The notes under the pieces were generated by a model. That model was not told the origin of the DNA and made no database searches. It was given only the letters and a program-made list of their open reading frames with translations. From contig QCIS01000007.1 of NCBI GenBank assembly GCA_003216535.1, positions 48,985 through 112,984 on the forward strand: a stretch of 64,000 bases of DNA, written 5' to 3'. Both the position numbers and the translations under genes were made by a program. This stretch comes from Prochlorococcus sp. AG-402-N08. Lineage in GTDB: Bacteria > Cyanobacteriota > Cyanobacteriia > PCC-6307 > Cyanobiaceae. This document shows, piece after piece, positions 10,197 through 36,346 of the stretch. Numbering within the stretch: position 1 is the first letter of the stretch; every line of letters starts with the position of its first letter.

Positions 10197-11351
10197 ATGA
10201 TGAAAAAAGTTTGTGTAATTATTACCGCAAGACCAAGTTATTCAAGAATAAAATCTACCCTTTTAGCCCTAAAAAAAAATAAAAATATTCAACTTCAAAT
10301 AATTTTATCTGGCTCAGCTCTTCTAGATAGATATGGGAAAGTTTCAAAAGTAATAAGAGAAGATGGGTTCATTATTGATTCGCAAATACATAATGTAATT
10401 GAAGGTAGTGAGTTATCTCATTCAGTAAAAAGCGTTGGATTAGCTCTTATTGATTTATCTTCTGAATTATCTAAAATAAATCCTGATATTGTTATAACAA
10501 TTGCCGATAGATACGAAACTATCGCAAATGCGATTGCATCATCATATATGAATATCCCTTTATTACATATTCAAGGTGGTGAATATACTGGATCTATTGA
10601 TAATAAAGTAAGACATGCAATCACAAAACTAGCAGATATTCATTTTGTGGCAACTGATTTAGCAAAAAAAAGGGTTATCTCAATGGGGGAGGACCCAGAA
10701 AATGTTTTCAAAACAGGTTGTCCCTCCATTGACATAGCTTTAGAAGTTGAACAAACCCCTGTTTTAAACTTCGATCCCTTTGAAAGGTATAAAGGTACAG
10801 GGCCAAAATTTAACTGTAAAAACGGATATTTAGTAGTTATGCAGCATCCTGTTACGACAGAATACGATGAAGCTTTTAATCAAGCTAATGAAACAATTAA
10901 TGCCATAAGAAAAATTGATCTCCCTGTATTTTGGTTTTGGCCTAATGTAGATGCTGGTTCAGATGCAACCTCAAAGGCACTAAGGATATTTAGAGAATTT
11001 AATAAAAATGCAAAATTTCATTTTTTTAAAAATTTATTACCAAAAGATTTCTTACTTTTAGTTCAAAATTCTTCTTGTTTAGTTGGTAATTCCAGCGTTG
11101 GGATAAGGGAATGTTCTTTCTTGGGTATTCCTGTTGTTAATATTGGTTCTAGACAAAATGGTAGAGAAAGAGCAAAAAACGTTATTGATGTTTGTCATGA
11201 TTCTAATTCTATTTTTAATGCTATTAAGAAGCAAATCAATCATGGTAAATTTGAAAAGAGTTATCTTTATGGAAATGGTAAAGCTGGAGAAATAATGGCA
11301 GATTTAATTTCTAAAATTGAGTTTAAAAGCATAAATAATAACTTTTATTAG
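10197..11351 (+). CDS. neuC: UDP-N-acetylglucosamine 2-epimerase, hydrolysing (NeuC/LegG-like)
   Basis: Predicted to hydrolyse and epimerise a UDP-HexNAc to free ManNAc (or a di-N-acetyl 6-deoxy analogue), the first committed step of sialic or legionaminic acid synthesis. It opens with VCVIITARPSYSRIK, has ITIADRYETIANAIAS near residue 98 and LLHIQGGEYTGSIDN near 121, and ends with VGNSSVGIRECSFLGIPVVN, all typical of the hydrolysing NeuC branch. At 384 aa it is the family length. The next gene is a NeuB synthase on the same strand, 55 bp away. Sequence alone does not settle sialic (NeuC) versus legionaminic (LegG) substrate. Confidence 0.88.
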   Translation: MMKKVCVIITARPSYSRIKSTLLALKKNKNIQLQIILSGSALLDRYGKVSKVIREDGFIIDSQIHNVIEGSELSHSVKSVGLALIDLSSELSKINPDIVITIADRYETIANAIASSYMNIPLLHIQGGEYTGSIDNKVRHAITKLADIHFVATDLAKKRVISMGEDPENVFKTGCPSIDIALEVEQTPVLNFDPFERYKGTGPKFNCKNGYLVVMQHPVTTEYDEAFNQANETINAIRKIDLPVFWFWPNVDAGSDATSKALRIFREFNKNAKFHFFKNLLPKDFLLLVQNSSCLVGNSSVGIRECSFLGIPVVNIGSRQNGRERAKNVIDVCHDSNSIFNAIKKQINHGKFEKSYLYGNGKAGEIMADLISKIEFKSINNNFY

Positions 11352-11406: not shown

Positions 11407-12468
11407 ATGATTAATTCAAAAAACTTTTATATAGGTGATAGAGAAATAGGACCAAATCAGCCTTCATTTATTATCGCAGAAGTTGCCCAAGCTCATGATG
11501 GTTCACTTGGTATGGCTCATTCATTTATTGATATTGCAGCAGATTATGGTGCAGATGCTATAAAATTTCAAACACACATTGCAAATCATGAAAGTACATT
11601 GGATGATGAATTTAGAATAAAATTTTCATACGAAGATAAAACCAGATTCGAATATTGGAAAAGAATGGAGTTTACCTATGAAGAATGGATAGGTCTATAC
11701 AAACATGCAGAGGAAAAAAAAATAATTTTTCTTTCTTCAGCTTTTTCATTAGAAGCAATTGATCTTTTAGAAAAATTAAATGTCCCTGCATGGAAAGTAG
11801 CTTCAGGAGAAATTAATAATTTTCCTTTTCTAAAAAAATTGAGTAACACAAAAAAACCAATCCTAATTTCAACTGGTATGAGTAGTTTATCAGAGATTGA
11901 TGAAGCCTTTGAATTCCTTAAGAGTAATGAAGTCAATGACATAGCTATATTTCAATGTACCTCTGAATATCCAACTTCTTTAAATAAAGTAGGAATAAAT
12001 TTAATAGAAAAATTTAGAAATAAATATAATGTGCCTGTTGGGCTTTCAGATCATTCAGGTGACATAGCGCCATCTATTTACGCAATTTCAAAAGGTGCTT
12101 CACTTATTGAATTACATATAGCTTTACATCCATATCAATTTGGTCCAGATACTAATTCATCAATTACTCCAGATGAATTAAAAAATTTATCTATTCTTAG
12201 AGATAAGTTCCATATTATGAAATCCAACCCATCAGATAAAGATCAAGCTGCCAATAGATTAAATAAAATGACAGCATTATTTGGAAAGTCCCTATGCCTA
12301 ATTCGGAATATGAAAAAAGGAACCATATTAACTGAAGAAATGTTTACTTTAAAAAAACCAGGTAATGGTATTAAAGAAAAAGACTTACCAAATATATTAG
12401 GAAAGAAACTTTCTAGGGATGTCCAATCAAACAAATTAATAACTATTGAAGATATAGAAATTGATTAA
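11407..12468 (+). CDS. neuB: N-acetylneuraminate synthase family protein (NeuB-1)
   Basis: Condenses a 6-carbon N-acyl-mannosamine-type sugar with phosphoenolpyruvate to a nine-carbon nonulosonic acid. The TIM-barrel domain starts with PSFIIAEVAQAHDGS, then GADAIKFQTH, KVASGEINN, ISTGMS and VGLSDHSG near residue 215. The C-terminal SAF/antifreeze-like domain (KGTILTEEMFTLKKPGNGI) near 305 completes the normal NeuB architecture. At 353 aa it is full length. It follows neuC and ends 4 bp from the convergent GT-B gene. The sequence differs clearly from the second NeuB at 24518, so the two probably act on different sugars. Confidence 0.92.
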   Translation: MINSKNFYIGDREIGPNQPSFIIAEVAQAHDGSLGMAHSFIDIAADYGADAIKFQTHIANHESTLDDEFRIKFSYEDKTRFEYWKRMEFTYEEWIGLYKHAEEKKIIFLSSAFSLEAIDLLEKLNVPAWKVASGEINNFPFLKKLSNTKKPILISTGMSSLSEIDEAFEFLKSNEVNDIAIFQCTSEYPTSLNKVGINLIEKFRNKYNVPVGLSDHSGDIAPSIYAISKGASLIELHIALHPYQFGPDTNSSITPDELKNLSILRDKFHIMKSNPSDKDQAANRLNKMTALFGKSLCLIRNMKKGTILTEEMFTLKKPGNGIKEKDLPNILGKKLSRDVQSNKLITIEDIEID

Positions 12469-12472
12469 TAAT

Positions 12473-13864
12473 TTAAATATCTAAAGATTTTAGAAACATT
12501 TTTTCTGCATTTTTTAAGTTTCCTAATATATCTAAAGAATCTCTAACCCTATTTTTAGAGTAATTACTTTTATCATCAAGTGCTTTTTTTATGTATTTTT
12601 TAAGTGAATCAAAAGAATCAGCATTAGGTATAGAATTTATTAATTGTCTATTATGAAATTGCCTTTCATCTTGATACATATTAAAACGGGATGGATGGTT
12701 TAGATATTTGTAATCTTTGGTCTGGTAAAACATATTTATACAAGGTATATTTAATAAAGAAGCCTCTAAAGCAAGTGTAGAAAATATATTTATTACAAGG
12801 TCATAATTGAGTAAACGATCTCTCATAATATTAAATGAATTAGAATTTTCGTACTTTATAAATTTTTCTCCTGAAACCTTTTCTATATCTAAACTTATGT
12901 ATTTATATTTATTAACTAAAGATACTAATTTATTAATCTGAGGATAAAAAAAGGAACCATCATTCTTTCTTCTTAAAGCAAATGGATGAGGCCTTACTAC
13001 TAAATTAATATCAATTTTCAAAACTTGAAATGCTTTAATTATTTCTTCAACATAAGTGTAGTCAAAAGGAAATCTTTTATAAGATTTTCCACCATAAAGA
13101 ACTTTCAAGTTATTAGTTTTTTTATTTTTTTCCTTTTCAAAATCGATCCAAGAAGCATACTGTAAAGCGCCAACAGCAAATATATTTTGGGAAGAGATTT
13201 CCTGAAACTTTTTCAACTGTATATTCATAGAATCACTATATGAAAGAACTTTGTTAGGCTCACAAAGATGATACCCATTACCTGATACATTATCCCAACT
13301 TTGGATATAACAATAAGAGTAGATATTTAATCTTTTACTTGCCAAAAGCATAGTATCATTGGCATCAACTCCAGAAAATGATGTAGTTAAAATTTGAGAG
13401 ATTCCTAAAATCTTCAATAATTCTTCTTCTGATTTTGTATCAGTTAAAAAACACTCTAAATTGATTATGAATTTTCTTATAAATTTAAAATTGCAAGCTA
13501 GTTTGTATAGTATTTTTTGAAAAATGATCTTGTATGATATTAAAGCTTTTTTTGAATTCTCATATTCAAAAACTTTCCAAAAATCAAATAAAGTTTGATT
13601 AAAAAATTTTCTTGGGTATAAATACGCTCTAACATTTCTAAGAATTCTTTTTAGAAAATTAAAATCATTAATATTTTTAAAATCTACCGACTTTAAAATA
13701 ATTTCATTATTATCACAAAATTTTATTATTTTTTCTGAGATTAAATCTCTTTCGCAAATTACAAAGATTTGATATTTTCTTTGTATCTTTTTTATAGGTA
13801 ATACATCTTTTAGTAGCCTTAAAGCAGCGCCATGAGGTATTGTAATTGCAAGTTTATTTTTCAA
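12473..13864 (-). CDS. Putative GT-B surface-carbohydrate transferase (capsule type)
   Basis: A 463-aa protein not assignable to a named family with certainty. It has LKVLYGGKSYKRFPF, followed by INLVVRPHPF near residue 283 and LVINIFSTLALEASLLNIPC near 357. This RPHP-then-serine/E arrangement is the donor-site pattern of GT-B glycosyl- or glycerophospho-transferases in capsule clusters. The N-terminus (KLAITIPHGAALRLL) resembles UDP-sugar transferase starts. It sits alone on the minus strand between plus-strand neuB and the Gfo/Idh gene, with a 74-bp divergent promoter region upstream. Transfer of the nonulosonate made by its neighbours is a plausible but untested role. Confidence 0.6.
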   Translation of the reverse strand: MKNKLAITIPHGAALRLLKDVLPIKKIQRKYQIFVICERDLISEKIIKFCDNNEIILKSVDFKNINDFNFLKRILRNVRAYLYPRKFFNQTLFDFWKVFEYENSKKALISYKIIFQKILYKLACNFKFIRKFIINLECFLTDTKSEEELLKILGISQILTTSFSGVDANDTMLLASKRLNIYSYCYIQSWDNVSGNGYHLCEPNKVLSYSDSMNIQLKKFQEISSQNIFAVGALQYASWIDFEKEKNKKTNNLKVLYGGKSYKRFPFDYTYVEEIIKAFQVLKIDINLVVRPHPFALRRKNDGSFFYPQINKLVSLVNKYKYISLDIEKVSGEKFIKYENSNSFNIMRDRLLNYDLVINIFSTLALEASLLNIPCINMFYQTKDYKYLNHPSRFNMYQDERQFHNRQLINSIPNADSFDSLKKYIKKALDDKSNYSKNRVRDSLDILGNLKNAEKMFLKSLDI

Positions 13865-13938: not shown

Positions 13939-14946
13939 ATGAAAAATTTAAAATTTCTCATAGTAGGTTTTGGTTCTATAGGTAAAAGGCATTACGACAA
14001 TTTAGTAAATCTCTCTTATGAAGTATATGTTTATAGCTATAGAAAAAATAAAGACCCAAACAATGTTAATGAGGGAATTAAATTTGTTAATGATTTAGAA
14101 AACGCAATAGAAAAAGTAAACGCTGTGATAATTTGCAATTCGACTGAAAAGCATCTTGAAGTAGCACTTTTAGCAGCGAGTAAAGGAAAACATATTTTTG
14201 TAGAAAAACCTTTGTCTCATAATTTAAATAATTTAAAAAATTTAGAAAAAAAACTTAAGTCTAACAAGATTATATTCGCTTCTGGTTTTATGCTAAGGAA
14301 GCATCCAAATCTTATCTTTATAAAAGAATTAATTAGAAAAAGAGAACTAGGAAAAATATACTATGCTAATGCATCCATAGGTCAAGATTTAAGAAAATGG
14401 CGAAAAAATTATGACTATACTAAAGGTTATGCAGCTAATTCAGAAACTGGTGGTGGAGTTACTCTAGACTTAATTCACGAAATAGATTTAATAAATTGGC
14501 TAATTGGAGAAGCTGAAATTATTTTTGCCTTACTAGGTTTTAATAAAGAATTAAACATAAATACAGAAAGCATTTCAAACATAAGCATAAAAACATACGG
14601 AGACATTATTTGTAATATTCAATTAGATTATCTTTGCCCTGTGCTAAAGAGAAAGCTTGAAATAGTTGGTGAAAAAGGAATAGTAAATTGGGACTTCAAG
14701 ACAAATATTGTATCCTTTACAAATAAGGAAGACCATACAAAAGTTTTGCATAATCTAGAAAAGGATTTTGAAAGAAACATAATGTACTTAGAAGAAATGA
14801 AAGATTTTATTGAAAAAATAAAATTTAATAGTTTTGATTTATCACAATTTAATGATGCTTGTAATGCATTAAAGATCGCTATCGGAGCAAAATTATCTTT
14901 TAAAAATGAAAGCTTGATTTATAATAAAGATATTAAGATAAATTGA
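13939..14946 (+). CDS. Gfo/Idh/MocA family sugar oxidoreductase
   Basis: NAD(P)-dependent dehydrogenase with an N-terminal Rossmann domain (FLIVGFGSIGKRHYDN near residue 5) and the family hallmark IFVEKPLSHN near 90 (EKP catalytic lysine), then a C-terminal alpha/beta sugar domain with GGGVTLDLIHEIDLINWL near 171 (H and D of the GGG...HxxD motif). Members oxidise or reduce hydroxyls of sugars, uronates or inositols. It is the first gene of a four-gene overlapping set (oxidoreductase, neuA, 2-hydroxyacid dehydrogenase, ThDP enzyme), so its substrate is probably an intermediate on the way to the CMP-activated sugar. The exact reaction is unknown. Confidence 0.85.
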   Translation: MKNLKFLIVGFGSIGKRHYDNLVNLSYEVYVYSYRKNKDPNNVNEGIKFVNDLENAIEKVNAVIICNSTEKHLEVALLAASKGKHIFVEKPLSHNLNNLKNLEKKLKSNKIIFASGFMLRKHPNLIFIKELIRKRELGKIYYANASIGQDLRKWRKNYDYTKGYAANSETGGGVTLDLIHEIDLINWLIGEAEIIFALLGFNKELNINTESISNISIKTYGDIICNIQLDYLCPVLKRKLEIVGEKGIVNWDFKTNIVSFTNKEDHTKVLHNLEKDFERNIMYLEEMKDFIEKIKFNSFDLSQFNDACNALKIAIGAKLSFKNESLIYNKDIKIN

Positions 14947-14948
14947 TT

Positions 14949-15641
14949 ATGGAAACTTTATGCACAATTTGTGCAAGAGGTGGCTCAAAAGGAGTGCCAA
15001 ATAAAAATATCAAACTATTACTAGGAAAACCATTAATTGCGTGGACCATAGAAGAAGCTAAAAAATGCAAAGAAATCAATTCTGTAATAGTTTCAACAGA
15101 TTGTGAAAATATAGCAAAAATAGCTAAAGATTATGGCGCAGAAGTACCTTTTATGAGACCGACTAATCTTGCCTCGGATAATGCTGGGAAATGGGAAGTT
15201 TGGCAAAATGCATTAATTGAATCTGAAAAAATATACAAAAAAAAATACGATATGTATATTGATCTTGATTGTACATCCCCACTAAAAGAAAGTGAAGATA
15301 TTTCAAATGCTATAAATCTTTTCAAAGAAAAAAAAGTGGATTGCGTTTTTTCAATATGCGAATCGAGAAAAAACCCATATTTTAATATGGTTGAATATGT
15401 AGATAATAAATTAACTATTTCAAAAAAATTAGACCATAATATAGTTTGCCGACAAAAAGCTCCAAAAGTTTTTGATCACGTTGCTTCAATATATATTATT
15501 GATACAAATTATTTGAGAAATAGTTCCGGATTACTATCAGGAAATGCCATAGGTTATGATATGGGGATAGAAAAAGGGATTGATATTGATAATGAGATTG
15601 ATTTTGAAATTGTAGAATATTTAATGTCAAAAAAATGCTAA
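14949..15641 (+). CDS. neuA: Acylneuraminate cytidylyltransferase (NeuA-1, CMP-nonulosonate synthetase)
   Basis: Activates a nonulosonic acid with CTP to the CMP-sugar used by glycosyltransferases. The N-terminal LCTICARGGSKGVPNKNIK is the CTP-binding P-loop-like motif of this family. It is followed by LLGKPLIAWTI, VSTDCENIA, YIDLDCTSPLK (metal/nucleotide region near residue 98) and a C-terminal GIDIDNEIDFEIVE. The ORF track begins at a TTG at 14943 inside the upstream stop. I prefer the ATG at 14949, 2 bp after that stop. It overlaps the next gene by 7 bp. With neuC and neuB it completes a CMP-sialic-acid-type route. Confidence 0.92.
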   Translation: METLCTICARGGSKGVPNKNIKLLLGKPLIAWTIEEAKKCKEINSVIVSTDCENIAKIAKDYGAEVPFMRPTNLASDNAGKWEVWQNALIESEKIYKKKYDMYIDLDCTSPLKESEDISNAINLFKEKKVDCVFSICESRKNPYFNMVEYVDNKLTISKKLDHNIVCRQKAPKVFDHVASIYIIDTNYLRNSSGLLSGNAIGYDMGIEKGIDIDNEIDFEIVEYLMSKKC

Positions 15642-16582
15642 GTAATCACAAAAAATTAATATATTTAGGTCCAAAAAATACTCAAGGTTTGATTAAGAAA
15701 AATCTTGAAAACTTTGAAATATTCTTTCCAAATAATGAAAAAGAATTAAAAAATATTATTAAATCAATAAATGTTATTTTTGATGCTTCAATGAAAATTG
15801 AATTTAATGAAGAAATATTAATTAATGCTATTAATTTGGAATTATTGATAACTGCCACAACAGGTTTTTCACACATAGATGTTGATTATTTATCAAGAAA
15901 AAATATTCCCCTAAAAACACTTGGAGACCAAAAAGAATTTTTAAACCAAATAACACCTGCGGCTGAATTATCTTGGTTACTTTTAATGATGTGTGCAAGA
16001 AAAGTATTAAGTGCGGTAAATGATGTAAAAATTGGGAATTGGGATAGGACTAAGCATCCTGGAGAAATGCTGAATGGGAAAAAACTTGGAATTATTGGAT
16101 TAGGGAGACTTGGTAAATGGATGGCAAGATATGGAAATGCTTTTGGGATGAAATGTTACGGTTATGATCCTTATAATGATAATCAAATTAAGGATTTAGA
16201 AAGGAAAACATTAGAAGAGATTTTAAAGACTTGTGATTTTATTACCTTACATGTTAATTATAATCCGGGAGACTTAAAAATAATTACTAGTAATCATTTC
16301 AAATTAATTAAAAAGGGGGCCATCTTTATTAATACTTCAAGGGGAGAATTAGTTGATGAGAATGCTTTAATAGAAGCCTTGAAGGATGGAACTTTGAAAG
16401 CAGTTGGTATAGATGTTCTTAGTGGCGAACCCGATGTTAAAAATAATGAATTATTTAAACTAAGAAATTCAAATCTTAACTTGGTAATAACACCCCATAT
16501 TGGTGGCTTTTGTGAGGAAGTTTTACATAAAGTACTAACCTTTTCCTCTAAGAGGATAATTGAATATTATAAAAATGATTGA
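15635..16582 (+). CDS. D-isomer-specific 2-hydroxyacid dehydrogenase
   Basis: NAD-dependent dehydrogenase of the SerA/D-lactate/glyoxylate reductase superfamily. It carries GKKLGIIGLGRLGKWMAR (GxGxxG near residue 155), NTSRGELVDENAL near 230 (catalytic Arg), IDVLSGEP (Glu) and ITPHIGGF (His) near 285, so the Arg-Glu-His triad is intact. It lacks the ACT/ASB regulatory tail of SerA. It overlaps neuA upstream and the ThDP enzyme downstream, implying a shared pathway rather than serine synthesis. A 2-keto/2-hydroxy acid or a sugar-acid intermediate is the likely substrate. Confidence 0.87.
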   Translation: MLSNHKKLIYLGPKNTQGLIKKNLENFEIFFPNNEKELKNIIKSINVIFDASMKIEFNEEILINAINLELLITATTGFSHIDVDYLSRKNIPLKTLGDQKEFLNQITPAAELSWLLLMMCARKVLSAVNDVKIGNWDRTKHPGEMLNGKKLGIIGLGRLGKWMARYGNAFGMKCYGYDPYNDNQIKDLERKTLEEILKTCDFITLHVNYNPGDLKIITSNHFKLIKKGAIFINTSRGELVDENALIEALKDGTLKAVGIDVLSGEPDVKNNELFKLRNSNLNLVITPHIGGFCEEVLHKVLTFSSKRIIEYYKND

Positions 16583-18110
16583 AGAAACAATAAAAAATTT
16601 AGCAGAAATTCTTTTAGAATTAAACATAAAATTCATATTTGGTATTACTGGGGGTGGCAGAAGTATTAATCTAATAAATTTCTTAACCCAGAAAAATATT
16701 AAGTTTATAAACACTCATCATGAAGCGAGTGCCGCAATAATAGCAGGAGCTGTAAATAGGTCATCTACAAATAAAGCTTTATCCATTAGTATTAAAGGAC
16801 CAGGACTTATAAATTCGATTCCGGGAATTTGTTTTAATAACTTTGAAAATATAAATTCTATAAGTATTTCTGAAGATTATGATTCTCCTGAACAAGATCA
16901 AAAAACTCATAAAAGAATAAATAATCATTCACTTTTAAAACAATTCACAAAGGGCATTTTTTCTATGGATTATTTAGTAGAAAATAGAAATGAATTTTTT
17001 GAATTAGTAAATTCAAATGATAGTTGTCCAATTCACATTAATCTTTCATTAAGTAATTTATTTATTAAAAATATAAAAAGCAAACATAAAGCCAAAAATA
17101 TTACCAAAGAAAAACTTCAACTTATAAAAAATTCGAAAAAACCCCTTATTATTTTTGGGAATGAAGGAATAAGATTTTTTAAAAAAAGTTTAAATAAACT
17201 TAAAGTTCCTTTCCTTATTTCAGTTTCTTCGTTAGAAAATTTTAATATTCAAAATGATTACTATTCAGGAGTATTTACTGGAGAAGGTAAATCTTTATCA
17301 GCAGAATTTAAGCTAATTAAAGAATGCGATCTTATTACTTACATTGGTTTAAAGAAAAATGAAATTACTGGAACTTTAAATATTATGAAAAATCATATTG
17401 CATTAACAAACAAAAATTTTTTAACCGATGAAGATATGCAAGAAACTTTTTACTGTTCTGAAAAAGAGATTACAAATATATATGATCATATAATTAAAAA
17501 ATGGAATATTGAAAAAGTATTAAATTATAGAGTTTCCATGCAAGAAAAGCTCCTTGAAAAAAAATGGTCGCCAAGTAAATGTTATGAAATAATAAATAAA
17601 AAAATTAGTAAATGTAATTGCATAATAGACACAGGCAATTTTGCTATTGAAGCGGAGCATATATTATCTTTCTCAAAACAAAAAAAATATTATGGAAGCA
17701 GTATAAGTAGATTTATGGGAACAGCGATACCTACATCTATAGGAGTATCATTTGGCAATGAAGAAATTCCAACTATTTGTATTGTTGGTGACGGAGGAAT
17801 AAGTCCTTATCTTTCTGATTTAAAAATAATTTATGAAAATAAACTTCCAATATGCATTATATTGATGACTGATGGAGGTTATGGAAGTATCGCCAAATCA
17901 GCTCCAAAAAATTCACCTATTGAAGCTTTATATATGAAATCACCATCTTGGATAAAAATAATACAAGAATTCAAAATAAAATCATTTGAATGTAAAAATA
18001 TTACAGAATTTTCCAAAAACATTAGTCAATGGAATTGCATTGAACCAATTTTTTTAGAATGCACTTTTAATGAAAAAGAATATATCAATCAAACAAATGA
18101 AATTAGGTAA
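16575..18110 (+). CDS. Thiamine-diphosphate enzyme, acetolactate-synthase-like
   Basis: A full three-domain ThDP enzyme (about 510 aa). The N-terminal Pyr domain has NTHHEASAAIIAGA near residue 45 (Pyr-domain glutamate) and SIKGPGLINSIPG. The C-terminal PP domain has IVGDGGISPYLSDL near 395 and then LMTDGGYGSIA. The usual GDG-X25-NN metal motif therefore ends in TD rather than NN. Family members decarboxylate a 2-keto acid and transfer the two-carbon unit. YerE of yersiniose synthesis attaches an acetyl branch to a nucleotide sugar this way. Start chosen at the ATG (16575), giving an 8-bp overlap; the track uses a TTG at 16560. Specific reaction unknown. Confidence 0.8.
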   Translation: MIEETIKNLAEILLELNIKFIFGITGGGRSINLINFLTQKNIKFINTHHEASAAIIAGAVNRSSTNKALSISIKGPGLINSIPGICFNNFENINSISISEDYDSPEQDQKTHKRINNHSLLKQFTKGIFSMDYLVENRNEFFELVNSNDSCPIHINLSLSNLFIKNIKSKHKAKNITKEKLQLIKNSKKPLIIFGNEGIRFFKKSLNKLKVPFLISVSSLENFNIQNDYYSGVFTGEGKSLSAEFKLIKECDLITYIGLKKNEITGTLNIMKNHIALTNKNFLTDEDMQETFYCSEKEITNIYDHIIKKWNIEKVLNYRVSMQEKLLEKKWSPSKCYEIINKKISKCNCIIDTGNFAIEAEHILSFSKQKKYYGSSISRFMGTAIPTSIGVSFGNEEIPTICIVGDGGISPYLSDLKIIYENKLPICIILMTDGGYGSIAKSAPKNSPIEALYMKSPSWIKIIQEFKIKSFECKNITEFSKNISQWNCIEPIFLECTFNEKEYINQTNEIR

Positions 18111-22767: not shown

Positions 22768-23631
22768 ATGAAGGACACTGACTATAAAGTAAAGGGTTCT
22801 GACGTAAGTAATTCATTTAAAAACACATTAAGACATAATGATGGGTTAATCTTTCAACAATTAGAGTTTACAGTTACTGGTTTATGCAACAGATCATGCT
22901 CATTTTGTCCACGTACTGATCCAAAAATCTTTAAGTCAACTAAAACATTTTTAGATTTAGAGATGCTTGAAGAAAACTTCTCTTTACTAGCAAAATATGA
23001 TTATTCAGGAAGACTTTCTTATGCTGGATTTGGTGAACCCTTTACACATCCCAATTTTGATAAGATATTAGAGATTAGTAGGAAAATTTTACCAAAATCC
23101 GTTATTGATATCATTACCAATGCAGATTTATTGAAAACAAAACTTGGCAAGAGAGTTCTAGCCAATAAACATTTTAATAGACTTTTAATCTCAGCTTATG
23201 ATGGGATAGAGCAAGTTAAACAACTGGAAAAAGATTACTCAGATCTTATTCAAAAAGGCAAAATGGTTATTAGAAAAAGATTCTTATATGAGGGAGATGA
23301 ATTAGATCTTTTTAGTAGTAGAACAGGATTAGTTGATTATGGGAATAAATCAGAATCAAAAACTAATCCTTGTTTCTATCCTTTCTACAATATTTTTGTT
23401 GACTCTAATGGAGACGTAATAGCATGTTGCCATGATTGGGGTAAGAAAAAGATTTTTGGTAATGTATACAAAGATTCCATTCTTGATATTTGGTTTTCAA
23501 AAGAATATAGAATTTTTAGAAAATTAATGTTTCAAAAACCGAGAGAAATTGAGCCATGTAATAATTGCGATGTAGACGGAACTTTATATGGCTCGGAAGC
23601 ATTTTCTGATTGGAAAGAAAAAAAATGGTAA
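22768..23631 (+). CDS. Radical SAM protein with SPASM domain
   Basis: Carries the [4Fe-4S] radical-SAM motif CNRSCSFC (Cys40, Cys44, Cys47; CX3CX2C) and a C-terminal SPASM region with NPCFYPFYNIF, IACCHDWG and EPCNNCD for auxiliary clusters. Length 287 aa. SPASM proteins act on peptides or small molecules, and some modify aminoglycoside or sugar-derived substrates. The next gene is an MTAN-like nucleosidase (55 bp downstream), which could clear 5'-deoxyadenosine or SAH made by radical-SAM chemistry. The substrate is unknown; context with NeuB-2 and a formyltransferase suggests surface-sugar metabolism. Confidence 0.85.
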   Translation: MKDTDYKVKGSDVSNSFKNTLRHNDGLIFQQLEFTVTGLCNRSCSFCPRTDPKIFKSTKTFLDLEMLEENFSLLAKYDYSGRLSYAGFGEPFTHPNFDKILEISRKILPKSVIDIITNADLLKTKLGKRVLANKHFNRLLISAYDGIEQVKQLEKDYSDLIQKGKMVIRKRFLYEGDELDLFSSRTGLVDYGNKSESKTNPCFYPFYNIFVDSNGDVIACCHDWGKKKIFGNVYKDSILDIWFSKEYRIFRKLMFQKPREIEPCNNCDVDGTLYGSEAFSDWKEKKW

Positions 23632-23686
23632 AAATTATTTAAAATTAGTGGTTTAATATTATTAATACAATTCATCAATAATTCGA

Positions 23687-24457
23687 ATGTCAAAAAATAA
23701 TTTTCACATAGCTGTTTTATCTGCGATGCCAGAAGAAATATCATCTTTAAAAAATAAATTAAAAAATATTCAAAATTTTAAATTACAGAACCAAGAAATT
23801 ATATCTGGTATTTGGAAAGAGGAATTATCACATTCAAATGAAATTAGAATTACATCTTCATGGAGTGGATGGGGAAAAGTTAATTCTGCGCAAGCAGCTA
23901 CAAAATTAATTTATTTGAATCAAGATTTCCCAAAGATTGATTTATTAATTTTCACTGGTGTTGCAGGATCAGCTGATAATAATCTAAAACAATGGGATAT
24001 AGTTGTGGGTGATGCTTTAATTCAGCATGATATGGATGCGAGTCCAATTTTCCCTAAATATGTTATTCCTAATATAAATAAAAGCTTTTTCAAGCCAAGA
24101 AAAGAAGTTTTAAAATGGACTTTTGAATCATTTAAAGAATTAGAAAATAAAATTTGTTTTAAAAAAGTTTATAGTGGAACTATCGCGACAGGAGATCAAT
24201 TTATAAGTGATAAAGAAAATATTATTAGTTTAAAATCCGAAATAACTAATTTATTGGCGGTAGAAATGGAGGGTGCTTCAGTGGCGCAAGTATGCTTTAA
24301 CGATAATGTACCATGGTTAATTGTAAGAGTCATTTCTGATTCTGCAAATGACAACGCGGTGACTGATTTTAATGATTTTGTTTCAGAGTACGAATCTAAA
24401 TCATGGTTAATTATTCAATCACTTTTGAAAAATATAAATCATTTAAAACTAAAATAA
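23687..24457 (+). CDS. 5'-methylthioadenosine/S-adenosylhomocysteine nucleosidase-like protein
   Basis: PNP/UDP phosphorylase-fold protein of 256 aa. It opens HIAVLSAMPEEISSLKNKL, the MTAN N-terminus with the catalytic-region Glu, and later has TGVAGSADNN (GxAG phosphate/ribose loop near residue 87) and LAVEMEGASVAQVC near 190 (the M-E pair contacting ribose) followed by RVISDSAND (catalytic Asp). It is somewhat longer than the usual MTAN of about 230 aa. It could hydrolyse MTA, SAH or 5'-deoxyadenosine. Position between a radical SAM gene and NeuB-2 suggests either by-product clearing or an adapted sugar-nucleoside role. Confidence 0.8.
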   Translation: MSKNNFHIAVLSAMPEEISSLKNKLKNIQNFKLQNQEIISGIWKEELSHSNEIRITSSWSGWGKVNSAQAATKLIYLNQDFPKIDLLIFTGVAGSADNNLKQWDIVVGDALIQHDMDASPIFPKYVIPNINKSFFKPRKEVLKWTFESFKELENKICFKKVYSGTIATGDQFISDKENIISLKSEITNLLAVEMEGASVAQVCFNDNVPWLIVRVISDSANDNAVTDFNDFVSEYESKSWLIIQSLLKNINHLKLK

Positions 24458-24517
24458 AAAATTAATTTACAGTCGGCAAAAGGGGTGTAAAATCTTTATG
24501 AATAAACTATTTAAAGA

Positions 24518-25519
24518 ATGTATATCATTGCTGAAGTTGGGGTTAATCATGATGGTTATTTAGATAAGGCCATTAATTTAATAAATGCTGCAAAAGAATG
24601 CGGTTGTGATGCTGTTAAGTTTCAAAGTTTTTATGCAGATAGACTAGTTCATCCTTCGGCTAAAAAAGTAGATTACCAACTCCGTTCTGGAGATGAATCA
24701 GAAAGTCATCATGAAATGATAAGAAAATTAGAATTTAATGGAACAAATTTTAAAAAAGCTTTCGAATATGCTTCAAAAATTAATATTGACTTTATAACAA
24801 CCCCATACGACCCTTTTTCAGCTAAAGAAGCCTATGATTGCGGGGTTAGAAAATTTAAAACTGCATCTGCTGACTTGTCTGATCTATATCTCCATAATGA
24901 AATATCTTCTTTTAAGGATGTTGAAGTTATTATTGCCACTGGCATGTCTGATATAGAAACCATAAAAAATACAATATCAATTTACAAAAACACAAAGCCC
25001 ACCATACTACATTGTGTATCTGAGTATCCATGTTCTGATGGATCTCTCAATTTAAATTGCATAAATCTTCTGAAAAAAAATTTTAAAAATCACAAAATTG
25101 GTTTTTCAGATCACAGTATTGATAACGTACCTTCTTTAATTGCTGCTTCAATTGGCTATGAATATTTTGAAAGACACTTTACTTTAAATAAACAAGATGA
25201 AGGTCCAGACCATTATGCCTCCTCTGATGTAAATGAAATGAAAAATTATGTCGAACAAATCAGGAGATGTATAAAAATTAAAGGTTTACAAATAAAAAAT
25301 ATTCAAAAAGAAGAAATGGGAATGTCAAATAGATCTAAAAAAGCAATTTTATCTAAGGTTAATTTAAAAAAGGGTACGAAAATAAATTTAGACAACACTT
25401 ATGCGATTAGACCTGCAGAAAACGGCATAAGTATTGATAAATTGCAAGAAATAATTGGCAAAGAACTTGTTTGTGATTTACCAAAAAATAGTTTTATTCA
25501 ATATTCCGACTTAAAATGA
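24518..25519 (+). CDS. NeuB family nonulosonate synthase (NeuB-2)
   Basis: Second NeuB-type PEP-condensing synthase. The barrel begins MYIIAEVGVNHDGYLDKAI, with CDAVKFQSFYADRLV near residue 38, FKTASADLSD near 117, IATGMSDIE near 138 and GFSDHSIDN near 192. The C-terminal SAF domain (KKGTKINLDN, RPAENGIS) is present. At 333 aa it is shorter than NeuB-1 and diverges from it throughout, resembling the LegI/PseI-type or N-acylneuraminate-9-phosphate synthase group. It overlaps the formyltransferase gene by 4 bp (ATGA). The convergent operon carries a second CMP-synthetase that would activate its product. Confidence 0.88.
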   Translation: MYIIAEVGVNHDGYLDKAINLINAAKECGCDAVKFQSFYADRLVHPSAKKVDYQLRSGDESESHHEMIRKLEFNGTNFKKAFEYASKINIDFITTPYDPFSAKEAYDCGVRKFKTASADLSDLYLHNEISSFKDVEVIIATGMSDIETIKNTISIYKNTKPTILHCVSEYPCSDGSLNLNCINLLKKNFKNHKIGFSDHSIDNVPSLIAASIGYEYFERHFTLNKQDEGPDHYASSDVNEMKNYVEQIRRCIKIKGLQIKNIQKEEMGMSNRSKKAILSKVNLKKGTKINLDNTYAIRPAENGISIDKLQEIIGKELVCDLPKNSFIQYSDLK

Positions 25520-26178
25520 AAATCTTATATGCAGGTCATGGGATAATTGGTGCTGTTGGTCTAACTCATTTATTTTCTCATGGCAATACGAATATTAACG
25601 ACATAACTTTATTGATAGACAACTCAAAATCATCTCTTATGAAGATTTATGCTGAAAATTATAGTTTAAGGTTTTATCAAATTGAAAGTAATAATATTTT
25701 AGAAGAGAAATTTGATTTACTGATTTCAGCACACTGGAGAAAACGAATTGATAAAGATATTTTGAATTTATGTCGCTTAGGAGGAGTAAATTTACATCCA
25801 TCACTATTACCAAAATATGCAGGTTGTTCTTCGTTAGCCTGGGCAATTTTAAATAAAGAAAAGGAAGTTGGTTATTCGTGGCATTTAATGGAAGATGATT
25901 TTGATGTAGGAGATATTATTATCCAAAAAAAAATACCCCTATGCGATGAAGATACTGCTTTTTCTTTATGGAACAGGGTAAATATTTTAGGAATTAAAGA
26001 GATAAATAAGCTAATTTCTCTCGCAGATGGAGGTTTCAAAGAGAGAATAAAACAAGATTTATCAAAAAGGACATATTACTCGAGAGGGTTCCCAACTTTT
26101 GAATCGCTTTTAAAAGAAAATCCAAATTTGCCAATAAATCTTTATGAGAGAGCAAGTTATTTCCCCAAGTTTAATTAG
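25516..26178 (+). CDS. Sugar N-formyltransferase-like protein (formyl_trans_N fold)
   Basis: A 220-aa protein related to the catalytic domain of methionyl-tRNA and UDP-Ara4N formyltransferases. The active-site set Asn/His in VNLHPSLLPKYAG near residue 95 and the later Asp in DFDVGDII near 132 are all present. No C-terminal tRNA-binding domain follows, which argues against a second Fmt. Related enzymes (WbkC, VioF, FdtF) move formyl from N10-formyltetrahydrofolate to an amino sugar. The convergent operon holds a perosamine-synthetase-like aminotransferase, the obvious source of a 4-amino sugar. It is translationally coupled to NeuB-2. Confidence 0.85.
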   Translation: MKILYAGHGIIGAVGLTHLFSHGNTNINDITLLIDNSKSSLMKIYAENYSLRFYQIESNNILEEKFDLLISAHWRKRIDKDILNLCRLGGVNLHPSLLPKYAGCSSLAWAILNKEKEVGYSWHLMEDDFDVGDIIIQKKIPLCDEDTAFSLWNRVNILGIKEINKLISLADGGFKERIKQDLSKRTYYSRGFPTFESLLKENPNLPINLYERASYFPKFN

Positions 26179-26191
26179 GAAATATTATTTT

Positions 26192-27037
26192 TTAGACTAA
26201 ATTTCTTTGAATTAACTTATACATCTCTTCGATTCTCTCTGGGGACGCATGTTGAGTTTCTATTGCTATATAGTTTAGATTTTTAAATATTTTAAGATAA
26301 TCTAAAATCCAAAATTCCTTATCAAAAAATTCATTAGTATCCTCAAGTCCCTTGTTATCACTAAGATGCAATCCTTCTACAAAAGGTGATAATTTCAAAA
26401 CTGATTCTTTAAGATTAAAATTTAAATTATTAGAAGATACTTTTAAATGAGCAACATCTAGTAATAATCCACAAAAAGAATACATTCTGTCAAAAAAAGA
26501 TTCTATTTCATTAACATGAGACAAAAGTAACAAATCCGTTTTTTTTAATTGTTTATTTCTAAAACCAGCCACGTTATTCTCTATTAATAATCTTACATTT
26601 TTCTTGGCGGCCAATTCTGAAAAATATTTGGTTCTTTTTGTAAATAATTCGAAAATCTCTTTTCTTGAAGAATATGCATCACTGGTTATTTCATTACCTA
26701 ACATTGAAGGTGAGATATCTGAAGCATAACCAGCATGCAAACTATAATAAGGGGCACAAAGTTTTTGACTTAGTTCAATATTTTTAATTATCATTTGTTC
26801 TGTTAAATGGTAATTTTCTTTATCCATAGAGGCAAGATTTAATACAAAAGGTGATTTAGGTCTTGGTGAATAATTATGAACAAATAATTTATCTTTAAAT
26901 AAATTAATGTTTTTTTTATTAGGTAAAAAGCCATGATTTGAAGAAAGCTCAATATTTGCTCCTAACTTCTCAACTATTTCAGGAATATAATTTAAATCTT
27001 TTAAGCCTAAAGAGGTTGTAGTTATAGAAATATACAT
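26192..27037 (-). CDS. Sugar phosphate isomerase/epimerase-like TIM barrel (AP endonuclease family 2 fold)
   Basis: A 281-aa xylose-isomerase-like TIM barrel. Metal-site residues are visible: SLHAGYAS near residue 98 (His), LLIENNVAG near 151 (Glu), LLLDVAHLKVS near 191 (Asp/His), VEGLHLSDNKG near 222 (His/Asp) and YIAIETQH near 263 (Glu). The fold covers hydroxypyruvate isomerase, inosose dehydratase and sugar epimerases. It is the last gene of the long minus-strand run and shares one base with the stop of NeuA-2 (TAATG). Its role in sugar synthesis here is inferred from context. Confidence 0.78.
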   Translation of the reverse strand: MYISITTTSLGLKDLNYIPEIVEKLGANIELSSNHGFLPNKKNINLFKDKLFVHNYSPRPKSPFVLNLASMDKENYHLTEQMIIKNIELSQKLCAPYYSLHAGYASDISPSMLGNEITSDAYSSRKEIFELFTKRTKYFSELAAKKNVRLLIENNVAGFRNKQLKKTDLLLLSHVNEIESFFDRMYSFCGLLLDVAHLKVSSNNLNFNLKESVLKLSPFVEGLHLSDNKGLEDTNEFFDKEFWILDYLKIFKNLNYIAIETQHASPERIEEMYKLIQRNLV

Positions 27038-27720
27038 TAATTTTCAAGAAGAAATTTTGCGAATTGAAAATCTTCAAAAGTATCTATATCGATAGATCTT
27101 TTTTTTGTAATGTAGTATGTACAAGGTAAACAAATTAATCTTTTTTGTAATAGGACATTTTTTGTAATAGATATTTCAAATTCACATGTAGGGAAAAAAC
27201 ATTTAGGTAAGGATTGAGAATTAGGATAAAGAGACTCATTTTTATTATTTATTATTGGGATAAGAGAACCATCATCCTTTATGAATTTCATCCAAAAAGG
27301 ATGCTCGCTTACTTCTTGAACCGATCTTAGTGATAAAAAATTATGCTGTTGATTAAAGTATTCCAAAGCTGCAATACATTCTCTATGATCTCTTATTGGC
27401 GATGTTGGTCTAATCCACAAAATAATATCCTTTTCATCTATGAGTTTTTGATTAAATATTTCATATATAACATCAAAATCTTTTGCATTATCTCCGGAAC
27501 TTTTTGTAGATCTTTGATGGAAGCAAATTCCAGTTTTATTCTCTAAAGATTTATAGTAGTCTAAAGAATCTGAGGAAAATATAATAGATTTAGAAGGTAT
27601 TAACAATGCAAAGTTCAAAGCCCTTTGTATAAGAGAAATATGATTTATTTCTAAAAGGTTTTTATTTTTTAATCTTTTAGATTTTGATCTCGCAGGAATA
27701 ATTATAACTGGATCAGACAT
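27037..27720 (-). CDS. Acylneuraminate cytidylyltransferase family protein (NeuA-2)
   Basis: Second CMP-sugar synthetase, 227 aa, with PVIIIPARSKSKRLKNKNL (CTP-binding loop near residue 5), FALLIPSKSIIFSSDS, DIILWIRPTSPIRD near 99 (family RPTSPLR motif) and a C-terminal RSIDIDTFEDFQFAK. It differs from NeuA-1, whose loop is ARGGSKGVPNKN. It most likely activates the product of NeuB-2, although the PtmB/LegF type or a GlcN-1-P-type nucleotidyltransferase role cannot be excluded. It overlaps the aminotransferase gene by 8 bp and abuts the TIM-barrel gene. Confidence 0.85.
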   Translation of the reverse strand: MSDPVIIIPARSKSKRLKNKNLLEINHISLIQRALNFALLIPSKSIIFSSDSLDYYKSLENKTGICFHQRSTKSSGDNAKDFDVIYEIFNQKLIDEKDIILWIRPTSPIRDHRECIAALEYFNQQHNFLSLRSVQEVSEHPFWMKFIKDDGSLIPIINNKNESLYPNSQSLPKCFFPTCEFEISITKNVLLQKRLICLPCTYYITKKRSIDIDTFEDFQFAKFLLEN

Positions 27721-28813
27721 TTGCCAATATTATCGAAGTCATTTTATCAATTTCATTTTCATTAATATTTTGATGGCAAGGGATATCTAACATAATTTCA
27801 AAACTTCTAACTGTTTTATCAAGATTATTTAGTGATATACTTTCAAGATTTTTATGATAAGGCTGCAAATGGCATGGAGGGAATGATACTCTTGTTTCAA
27901 TATTATTTTTCTCTAAAATATTCATAATTGAATCTCTTGTATTTTTGCTTTCAAATAAGCAGGTGAGATTGTAGTAAGGATGTAAATCAACGTATTTTGG
28001 TACTTTTTGAAATTTTACTTTCTCCCCCATTAAATCCTTTATATTTTTAACTACTTTTTGTCTCTTGGAAAGGATATCATCCAATCTTGAGACTTGTGTA
28101 ATACCTATTGAGGCTTTCACATCTGTAAACCTATAATTAAATCCCATGGAAATATGCTCATATCTTATATCTCCTTGACCTTGATTTCTTATGATTTTCA
28201 ATTTAGACGCATAGTCTTCACTGTTAGTTGTTACTAGCCCGCCCTCACCAGTAGTAATAGTTTTATTTGCAAATAAACTAAATGAGTGCATTGCAGCTTG
28301 GGAACCAACTTTTGATCCTTTATATATTCCTCCTAATGATTCAGCACTATCTGCTATGTGTACAGCTCTATAGACATCGCATATTTGATTTATTAAATCA
28401 TAATCGCAAGGTAAACCTTTGAGATCTACACTCATAACAGCTTTTGGACTGTACTTTTTTAATATACTTTCTAATTCTTCAAGATCGAGTAATAGAGTAT
28501 CTTGATCTACATCACAATAAATAGGAATTGCTCCGCACAAATAAATTACATTTACACTACTAATGTAAGTAAGTGAAGGAACTACAACATAATCACCAGG
28601 ACCAATACCCAGACTTACCAAAGTTGAATGGAGCGTAACTGTTCCATTACTCATGGCTATGGAATAATTTACATTAATAAAATCTGATATCTTCTTTTCA
28701 AATTCTTGTGTTCTCTTACCTTGAGAGACCCAACCACTCAAAACCTGTTCATAAACTTCTTTAGCTTCTAGATGTCCCACATCAGGAGCACCCATTCTAA
28801 TCCAATTTTTCAT
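27713..28813 (-). CDS. DegT/DnrJ/EryC1 aminotransferase (perosamine-synthetase-like)
   Basis: PLP-dependent nucleotide-sugar aminotransferase. It has GWVSQGKRTQEFEKK near residue 30, SNGTVTLHSTL near 56, VVPSLTYISSVN, ADSAESLGGIYKG near 165 and SLFANKTITTGEGG near 187 (Schiff-base lysine). The whole pattern, including NQG and YNYRFTD-type elements, closely resembles RfbE/Per perosamine synthetase, which aminates GDP-4-keto-6-deoxymannose, the Gmd product. LegC-type activity is the alternative. Start set at the ATG at 28813, overlapping the upstream stop as ATGA; the track's longer start is a TTG. Confidence 0.88.
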   Translation of the reverse strand: MKNWIRMGAPDVGHLEAKEVYEQVLSGWVSQGKRTQEFEKKISDFINVNYSIAMSNGTVTLHSTLVSLGIGPGDYVVVPSLTYISSVNVIYLCGAIPIYCDVDQDTLLLDLEELESILKKYSPKAVMSVDLKGLPCDYDLINQICDVYRAVHIADSAESLGGIYKGSKVGSQAAMHSFSLFANKTITTGEGGLVTTNSEDYASKLKIIRNQGQGDIRYEHISMGFNYRFTDVKASIGITQVSRLDDILSKRQKVVKNIKDLMGEKVKFQKVPKYVDLHPYYNLTCLFESKNTRDSIMNILEKNNIETRVSFPPCHLQPYHKNLESISLNNLDKTVRSFEIMLDIPCHQNINENEIDKMTSIILANV

Positions 28814-29760
28814 AAGTAGTTTAAATACCAATCGTGAGTTTTTTGCAAACCTTCTTCAAGGCTATATATAGGAGAATAGCCTAATTTCTTCAGTTTTGAG
28901 ATGTCTGGACAACGTCTTTCCGTTGACCCAAGAGGTAAGTCTTCTTCTATTAAATCAAATTCCTTGTTTGTAATTCTAGAAAGAATATTTAATATTTCTA
29001 ATATTTTTACTTCTTTATCTGTACCAATATTATATATTTGATTTTCTCCTCCTTTTTCCCACATTATCCTGAATGCCCTGCCAAAATCTTTTAAATAACA
29101 AAAACTCCTAGATGATAATCCTCCTCCTTGAACTTTAATTGGGAATTTGTTATTAAGATTCTCCTTTGATTGATATATTTTCTTAATAAATTCAGGTATA
29201 ACATGCTCAAAACCCATATTTGGCCCATAGATATTGTGAGGCCTGAAAATCTGGTATGGAACTCTTTTCGGTAAATAATGGACGCACATTAGTTCGCCAA
29301 CAATTTTCCCTCCTCCATAAGAATATCGAGGATTCATTATATCTGGAATTACTAATTTCACTTTTTCTGATGTAGGAACTATTTCAGGAGTTTGATAAAC
29401 TTCGGATGATGAAGCGTATATAAATCTTTTGACATTATTATCATCTATTGCTCTCATAACATTAAGTTGTCCTTCTAATGCAACCTTGAAAACATCTCTT
29501 GGTCTCTCATAGAAATTTCTAGTTCCATTTATGAATGCAAGATTTATAACGACATCCATATTTTTGCAAATTAATGATACTTTATTAAAATCAGTTATAT
29601 CTAACTCTTCATGACTTACATTCGAAGAAATGTTTATTTTTTGTTCATTTCTAGAATAATTATCAGCACAAATGACATTTTCAGTTTTTGAGAGTGTGTT
29701 ACAAATTTCAGCCCCTATAAAACCTGACCCACCAATTACTAATACATTTTTTTTAATCAT
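28810..29760 (-). CDS. NAD-dependent sugar epimerase/dehydratase (extended SDR)
   Basis: A 316-aa extended SDR: VLVIGGSGFIGAEICNTL (GxxGxxG near residue 8), LDITDF near 53, YASSSEVYQTP near 115, NPRYSYGGGKIVGE near 143 (YxxxK) and FRPHNIYGPNMGFEH near 168. The pattern is nearest to nucleotide-sugar 4,6-dehydratases and UDP-glucuronate decarboxylases. A LegB-like dehydratase or decarboxylase role in making the aminotransferase substrate would fit. It overlaps both neighbours by 4 bp (CBS-dehydrogenase and aminotransferase), so it belongs to the same biosynthetic unit. Confidence 0.82.
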   Translation of the reverse strand: MIKKNVLVIGGSGFIGAEICNTLSKTENVICADNYSRNEQKINISSNVSHEELDITDFNKVSLICKNMDVVINLAFINGTRNFYERPRDVFKVALEGQLNVMRAIDDNNVKRFIYASSSEVYQTPEIVPTSEKVKLVIPDIMNPRYSYGGGKIVGELMCVHYLPKRVPYQIFRPHNIYGPNMGFEHVIPEFIKKIYQSKENLNNKFPIKVQGGGLSSRSFCYLKDFGRAFRIMWEKGGENQIYNIGTDKEVKILEILNILSRITNKEFDLIEEDLPLGSTERRCPDISKLKKLGYSPIYSLEEGLQKTHDWYLNYL

Positions 29761-33949: not shown

Positions 33950-34789
33950 TTAAGCACCATTAATCTTACTAGAGGCAAGATTATTTCCTAAGGATTCTTT
34001 TATTGATATTAATTGTATCAACAAGTTCTTTAAAAGATTTAATGGCACCATATTCGGACCATCACTTAAAGCATTATCAGGATCAGGATGAACTTCCATA
34101 AATATACCATCCACTCCAACAGCTAATGCGGCTCTAGCTAATGGAGCCACAAATTCTCTCTGGCCCCCACTTGTTAAACCATTTCCACCAGGCTGCTGTA
34201 CTGAATGAGTAGCATCAAATATTACAGGGAAGCCAAACGATTTAAGAATTGGTATCCCTCTAAAATCTACAACCAGATTATTATAACCAAATGTAGTCCC
34301 TCTCTCAGTAAGCCAAACTTTATCAGAACCAAGCTTTACGCCACTGTTTTTAAATTTATTAACTACTTGTTCCATATCCCATGGAGCTAAGAACTGGCCC
34401 TTTTTTATATTGATTTTTTTATCAGTATCCTCAATAGCTTTTAAAGAAGCTAAAAGTAAATCAGTTTGCCTGCATAAGAAAGCAGGTATCTGAATAACAT
34501 CAACTACATCTGCAATTTGTTCAGCCTGATTAGATTCATGAACATCTGTAAGAATTTTCAATTCAAACTCTTTTTTTACTTTTTCTAATATCTTCAAACC
34601 CTTTTCAATGCCGGGTCCTCTGAAAGATTTATTTGAACTTCTATTTGCCTTATCAAAACTAGACTTGAAAATTAAATCAATATCCAAAGAAGAACAGATA
34701 TTCTTAAGTTCATTTGCAGTTTCAAATACAATCTTTTCACTTTCAATAACACACGGACCTGCAATTAACTTTAATTTTTGTTTTTTCAT
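33950..34789 (-). CDS. kdsA: 3-deoxy-D-manno-octulosonate 8-phosphate synthase
   Basis: Condenses D-arabinose 5-phosphate with PEP to Kdo-8-phosphate. The sequence has LKLIAGPCVIESE near residue 6, IFKSSFDKANRSS near 39, KILTDVHE near 79, DVIQIPAFLCRQTDLL near 92, NIKKGQFLAPWDM near 123, FDATHSVQQPGG near 190 and GIFMEVHPDPDNALSDGPN near 226. All are hallmark KdsA motifs. At 279 aa it is normal. It is fourth of four consecutive Kdo genes, so the whole pathway from Ru5P to CMP-Kdo is encoded here on one strand. Confidence 0.96.
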   Translation of the reverse strand: MKKQKLKLIAGPCVIESEKIVFETANELKNICSSLDIDLIFKSSFDKANRSSNKSFRGPGIEKGLKILEKVKKEFELKILTDVHESNQAEQIADVVDVIQIPAFLCRQTDLLLASLKAIEDTDKKINIKKGQFLAPWDMEQVVNKFKNSGVKLGSDKVWLTERGTTFGYNNLVVDFRGIPILKSFGFPVIFDATHSVQQPGGNGLTSGGQREFVAPLARAALAVGVDGIFMEVHPDPDNALSDGPNMVPLNLLKNLLIQLISIKESLGNNLASSKINGA

Positions 34790-34806
34790 TAACTTTAAAT
34801 TGTATT

Positions 34807-36338: not shown

Positions 36339-36346
36339 AATTGATA

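Follow-up and report, generated by a model that had tools for sequence, protein, structure and literature searches.

What would a cell that builds a sialic-acid-like sugar do with an enzyme resembling acetolactate synthase (ALS)? The question is raised by a 64,000-nucleotide stretch of the Prochlorococcus sp. AG-402-N08 genome (contig QCIS01000007.1, positions 48,985 to 112,984; hereafter the window), in which genes of nonulosonic acid (NulO) synthesis lie with those of a Gfo/Idh/MocA-family oxidoreductase (Gfo/Idh), a D-2-hydroxyacid dehydrogenase (HADH) and a thiamine diphosphate (ThDP)-dependent enzyme. NeuC, NeuB and NeuA convert UDP-GlcNAc into a nine-carbon 2-keto sugar acid and activate it with CMP. 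To our knowledge, the known NulOs vary in stereochemistry, amination, acylation and deoxygenation, not in carbon skeleton. The original prediction, made from the letters of the DNA, knew of no described nonulosonate pathway that includes an HADH and a ThDP enzyme, and none was found in the literature, in a coverage that excluded most subscription journals. We tentatively favor, at somewhat less than an even chance, a NulO pathway to which a tailoring module of two or three enzymes has been added; together these would combine ketone formation, handling of a 2-oxo acid by the HADH and ThDP-dependent carboligation onto the sugar. The genes, in window coordinates, are:

10197..11351, plus strand: NeuC-like hydrolysing UDP-GlcNAc 2-epimerase (TIGR03568 NeuC_NnaA, 371 bits, cut-off 236)
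11407..12468, plus strand: NeuB-type phosphoenolpyruvate (PEP)-dependent nonulosonate synthase (Pfam NeuB and SAF; TIGR03569, 306 bits, below 400)
12473..13864, minus strand: unclassified protein between NeuB and Gfo/Idh, no Pfam match
13939..14946, plus strand: Gfo/Idh/MocA NAD(P)-dependent sugar oxidoreductase (Pfam GFO_IDH_MocA N and C)
14943..15641, plus strand: NeuA/PseF-like CMP-sugar synthetase (CTP_transf_3; TIGR03584 PseF, 141 bits, below the cut-off of 206)
15635..16582, plus strand: HADH, SerA-like, NAD-type (Pfam 2-Hacid_dh N and C)
16575..18110, plus strand (open reading frame listed from TTG 16560): ThDP-dependent enzyme (Pfam TPP_enzyme N, M and C)

The last four had been described as coupled genes on the plus strand, and all four reading frames were confirmed, with the Pfam domains expected of them. 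With ATG 16575 as the start of the ThDP enzyme, a likelier choice than TTG 16560, neighbouring genes share 4, 7 and 8 bp; NeuA may have an alternative start at ATG 14949. The run from 13939 to 18110 had been placed correctly; the functional unit is larger, and the NeuC and NeuB genes, 1.5 kb upstream of Gfo/Idh with one opposite-strand gene intervening, had been omitted. That intervening gene probably lies outside the conserved cassette, and no gene like it occupies the corresponding place in other cassettes; its product is, at a guess, a glycosyltransferase. The window is AT-rich (27.7% GC), and the genome, of 1.6 Mb in 28 contigs, is 97% complete.

Whether such a combination is an accident of one genome was answered by a scan of 85,462 species genomes with two exact ThDP motifs, and each DNA match was confirmed in a tblastn search that used the real protein as query. 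The motifs were steered by query alignments that included artificial variants keeping chosen motifs; these artificial sequences were kept out of all trees and structure models. The scan gave at least three full-length ThDP relatives (28–32% identity, E values of 5e-77 to 2e-84), and a profile search of the genus added G1266. The carriers other than the window genome are:

L008, uncultured Gammaproteobacteria metagenome-assembled genome (MAG): NeuB-HADH-ThDP-Gfo/Idh-NeuA-NeuC, all six kinds
L009, Giovannonibacteria MAG: NeuA-ThDP-Gfo/Idh-NeuA-HADH-transporter-NeuB, five kinds, the HADH of another subfamily
L010, Parcubacteria MAG: HADH-ThDP-Gfo/Idh
G1266, same genus as the window genome: one operon Gfo/Idh-NeuA-HADH-ThDP-NeuB-NeuC, with gaps of 6, -4, 7, 67 and -4 bp

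In these four genomes sets of three to six homologous genes stand together in reshuffled order, with overlaps or gaps of mostly a few bases, and since the sets recur across them the association is more than chance. The HADH gene is directly upstream of the ThDP gene in four of the five loci, overlapping it by 4–35 bp or lying 7 bp away. Gene order or content is not unique to the window genome, a point on which the original prediction depended. All four carriers are known from draft assemblies, of which three are MAGs, and mis-binning is possible, yet each gene set is on one contig. In G1266 the six-gene operon is followed directly by amidotransferase-like and HisF-/HisH-like genes (L045:18047-19255 and L046:3-1168). 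Trios of an amidotransferase with HisF and HisH are associated with acetamidino sugars.

The six-gene set is rare but real, being found in two genomes of one genus and in two other bacterial groups. Within the genus, the window genome and G1266 are the only carriers among 266 genomes. In overlapping draws of 200 more genomes from the family and 385 from the phylum, single-sequence searches gave no other carrier, nor did profile searches of 287 genomes of the phylum of the Parcubacteria genome G538, or of 369 genomes of the class and 4 of the order of G536. There are probably more members than these, because the scan relied on two exact motifs and G1266 itself deviates (FMGGAIPS versus FMGTAIPT). 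A phage or plasmid origin of the ThDP gene was considered and set aside: searches of phages and plasmids with the window protein matched only ordinary ALS, pyruvate oxidase or keto-acid decarboxylases. HADH matches on plasmids were generic SerA types, and a cyanobacterial HADH match (L004) had no NulO neighbours.

Some members of the cassette have been inherited together more faithfully than others. The HADHs of the window, G1266, L008 and L010 are 40–53% identical and form one clade (100/99), outside which fall the L009 enzyme and a fused HADH-methyltransferase of the Parcubacteria genome. The latter (L021:11205-13055, genome G538) joins a D-2-HADH to what we read as a methyltransferase-like domain and lies between two NeuA genes; it represents a different subfamily linked to NeuA. 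The cassette NeuBs of the window, G1266 and L008 share 43–45% identity with one another and at most 34% with the other NeuBs compared, one of which is a second NeuB in the window, and the window NeuC is 44–47% identical to those of G1266 and L008. For NeuA, identity between the window and G1266 is 63%. Gfo/Idh identity is 44% for the same pair, 22–28% between the window and L008–L010, and 53–56% among the loci outside the genus. By these comparisons the central, conserved part of the cassette appears to consist of HADH, ThDP enzyme and NeuB, with Gfo/Idh and NeuA usually present and exchangeable. A Rhizobium plasmid (L049) carries the same type of NeuB (43% identical to that of L008) with NeuC and NeuA, and has no HADH, ThDP enzyme or Gfo/Idh. 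Since the NulO core occurs there alone, HADH-ThDP(-Gfo/Idh) behaves, and looks, like a tailoring add-on to it. HADH and ThDP enzyme form the module, with Gfo/Idh as its likely third member.

As in the NeuC-NeuB-NeuA pathway to sialic acid, NeuC, a NeuB-family protein and a NeuA/PseF-family protein are encoded in one cassette. NeuC clears its TIGR03568 cut-off of 236 bits (371 and 368 bits) and likely yields ManNAc or a ManNAc-like aldose. The cassette differs from that pathway in its added HADH, ThDP enzyme and Gfo/Idh, and in NeuB and NeuA proteins that score below the equivalog cut-offs: the NeuBs belong to the NeuB superfamily by Pfam and reach 306 and 281 bits with the Neu5Ac synthase model TIGR03569, against 400. 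Because NeuB and NeuA fall under the Neu5Ac and Pse cut-offs, the exact NulO cannot be named. In the HADH alignment the GxGRxG motif, Arg236, Glu265 and His288 are invariant, and the closest solved relatives are D-3-phosphoglycerate dehydrogenases (1wwk and others). The cassette HADH shares with SerA the catalytic Arg/Glu/His and the NAD motif; unlike SerA, it lacks a regulatory domain, resides in NulO cassettes and scores far below the phosphoglycerate dehydrogenase cut-offs (168–216 versus 454 bits). The Gfo/Idh proteins have both Pfam domains, with the lysine of EKP and the residues of the D..H motif invariant. They are closest to sugar and inositol dehydrogenases, and the window Gfo/Idh weakly matches the UDP-GlcNAc 3-dehydrogenase model.

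The ThDP enzyme is a member of the ThDP decarboxylase superfamily, with three TPP_enzyme domains, the fold, and Glu55 and G410-D411-G412 invariant. These features it shares with IlvB/AlsS. It departs from them in having no small subunit gene nearby, in lying outside an ilv context and in belonging to a distinct clade. Trees built from 20 and from 30 sequences place the five ThDP proteins together (100/100), apart from ALS, pyruvate oxidase, Gcl and the YerE-like group. The suspicion that it would not group with IlvB was thus upheld, and its scores point the same way, the window protein reaching 82 bits with the best ALS model against cut-offs of at least 500, and the best NCBIfam scores being 96–152 bits against cut-offs of 500 or more. 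A separate, normal ALS, cyanobacterial in look, is encoded elsewhere in the genome.

The active site is intact and altered at the same time. Catalytic Glu55, GDG and the Met of MGxAIP are retained. The Gln of the ALS motif FQE/HQS, present in seven of seven ALS sequences and also in Gcl, PoxB and others, is Lys118 in all five family members. Relative to ALS, Ser is replaced by K79 (Arg in G1266), Phe by H117 and Gly by R384, and position 388 holds Thr or Gly versus a bulky Phe or Tyr. Such residues would make the pocket more open and positively charged, suiting an acidic or phosphorylated sugar. The GDG...TD site, with TD in place of NN, had been offered earlier as a sign of divergence from ALS; the divergence holds by the tree, but TD by itself says little, as Asp is found at its second position in four other ThDP enzymes of the alignment, and the tree with the substitutions K/R79, K118 and R384 is the better evidence. 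A structure model built from 20 sequences (pLDDT 81.5, pTM 0.87, with region 110–117 of low confidence) replaced an earlier one from four sequences (pLDDT 54), which was not used. Foldseek matched it to AHAS Pf5, JanthE and AlsS at 15–21% identity, AHAS Pf5 and JanthE being the best at 17–21%.

JanthE (8rph; PMC12188165) belongs to the YerE-like lyases. Enzymes of this kind in lipopolysaccharide (LPS) synthesis take their donor units from 2-oxo acids and attach them to nucleotide keto-sugars, and ErwE takes functionalised longer donors (PMC12247030). Like the window enzyme, YerE, ErwE and JanthE are ALS-fold ThDP enzymes encoded in surface-polysaccharide clusters, JanthE being a top fold match. 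Membership in the YerE group, to which the original prediction had looked, was not supported: JanthE and its relatives form a separate clade nearer ALS, and a joint clade was rejected (p-AU 0.018, with a long-branch caveat). The YerE-like group was defined by JanthE, in the sequence printed in the alignment, and its viral-contig relatives, so that JanthE is the sole characterised representative in the tree; its identity to the window enzyme is about 17% by Foldseek. In further contrast to the YerE systems, no CDP-deoxyhexose genes were seen. The partner genes of YerE are not known to include HADH, NeuB or NeuC. By analogy, a YerE-like function for the window enzyme, the coupling of a 2-oxo acid to a sugar ketone, is nonetheless plausible. 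YerE/JanthE-like ThDP enzymes were also seen on four viral contigs of 6–122 kb (L065, L068, L070, L071). Two of them match JanthE best, L070 and L065 at 378–410 bits, with E values of 1e-121 for L065 and 5e-112 for L070. These are possibly phage-borne genes for C-branched sugars, or misclassified host islands.

We infer from the sequences each substrate, product and direction in the following scheme. Starting from UDP-GlcNAc, NeuC, NeuB and NeuA would make the nine-carbon 2-keto sugar acid and activate it with CMP. Gfo/Idh would oxidize a sugar hydroxyl to a carbonyl, on the precursor, the free nonulosonate or its nucleotide-activated form. The HADH would interconvert a D-2-hydroxy acid and a 2-oxo acid, supplying the donor of the ThDP enzyme or disposing of it; that the two act in sequence is suggested by the 2-oxo acid common to both and by their adjacency in four of the five loci. 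The ThDP enzyme would decarboxylate the 2-oxo acid and attach the acyl anion so formed to the carbonyl of the sugar. The product would be an acidic sugar for a cell-surface polysaccharide, C-branched if the acceptor is a ketone and chain-extended if it is an aldehyde. That the cassette makes such a nonulosonic acid, through a new ThDP-lyase family coupling an HADH-linked 2-oxo acid to the carbonyl of a sugar acid or nucleotide sugar, is possible but doubtful.

Several observations weigh against the scheme. Because the ThDP family lies outside the YerE-like clade, the analogy with C-branching is drawn from fold and context, and the cassette, unlike YerE systems, has no aminotransferase or dehydratase to make a deoxy-keto sugar. 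L010 has neither NeuA nor NeuB adjacent, its NeuA homologues being on another contig, and the L009 HADH is of another subfamily. Gfo/Idh and NeuA each form two subfamilies, one of the same-genus loci and one of L008–L010, with 22–34% identity between them, so that Gfo/Idh may not share one conserved step with the ThDP enzyme.

It is unlikely that HADH and ThDP enzyme instead make a small substituent (2-hydroxyacyl, aldehyde or carboxyalkyl) for a nitrogen or oxygen of the nonulosonate, or effect a carboxyethyl-type amine addition like that of carboxyethylarginine synthase. The solved relatives of the ThDP family include that enzyme, the HADH is nearest to SerA-type D-3-phosphoglycerate dehydrogenases, and the genes following the G1266 operon would place amide chemistry nearby; yet the cassettes share no gene for an acyltransferase, N-acyl transfer or a CoA ligase. 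Nor is it likely that the ThDP enzyme acts before NeuB, building or extending the aldose that condenses with PEP and so giving an ulosonic acid of longer or altered chain. The cassette NeuBs form their own group below the Neu5Ac synthase cut-off, which suggests that the aldose may not be ManNAc, and aldehydes can be acceptors in the ThDP superfamily. NeuB requires a free aldehyde, however, which an acyloin product would offer only after a further step, and the close NeuB relative on the Rhizobium plasmid occurs without the module.

WbpB-type enzymes recycle NADH by reducing a 2-oxo acid. Were the HADH to do only this for Gfo/Idh, with the ThDP enzyme independently removing or making the 2-oxo acid, no new carbon skeleton would arise. 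Gfo/Idh and an NAD-type HADH occur together at every locus, and the weak match to the UDP-GlcNAc 3-dehydrogenase model fits, but the explanation is improbable, as it leaves the fixed adjacency of ThDP enzyme and HADH unexplained and 2-oxo acids are already at hand in central metabolism. That the gene is an ordinary ALS paralogue or a chance neighbour in a variable surface-polysaccharide island is scarcely credible. In its favor, the LPS genes of the SAR11 HVR2 island include one that resembles ALS (SAR11_0527, listed with nucleotide-sugar epimerases and other genes in a paper that names no neuA or neuB; PMC2217521), and the solved structures related by sequence and fold include ALS. The idea is contradicted by the separate 100/100 clade, the low scores, Lys118 in place of the FQE Gln, the missing small subunit, the genome's own ALS and recurrence in five genomes.

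The window holds two other regions of related chemistry. At 22768-28831 lies a second nonulosonate-like cluster, with genes for a radical SAM/SPASM protein, an MTA/SAH nucleosidase, the second NeuB, a formyltransferase, a TIM-barrel protein, a cytidylyltransferase, a DegT aminotransferase and an epimerase; its content suggests a formylated amino sugar acid. At 33950-37174, DAHP_synth_1 (KdsA-like), HAD phosphatase (KdsC-like), SIS+CBS (KdsD-like) and CTP_transf_3 (KdsB-like) genes stand in a row that matches the Kdo pathway, so that this genome may code for pathways to three kinds of ulosonic acid.

Returning to the NulO cassette with its HADH-ThDP module, the gene set suggests an acidic sugar that has not yet been characterised. 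If the favored reading is true, a branched or chain-extended nonulosonic acid would be a class of acidic surface sugar of which we found no report, and the chemistry of sialic-acid-like sugars would be extended by a conserved carbon–carbon bond-forming module, present in NulO cassettes from marine picocyanobacteria, Patescibacteria and a gammaproteobacterium. The cassette offers a compact and testable set of enzymes. It would bring biocatalysis a new family of ThDP lyases, and it gives a clue to a surface sugar made by an ocean phototroph that lives under phage pressure.

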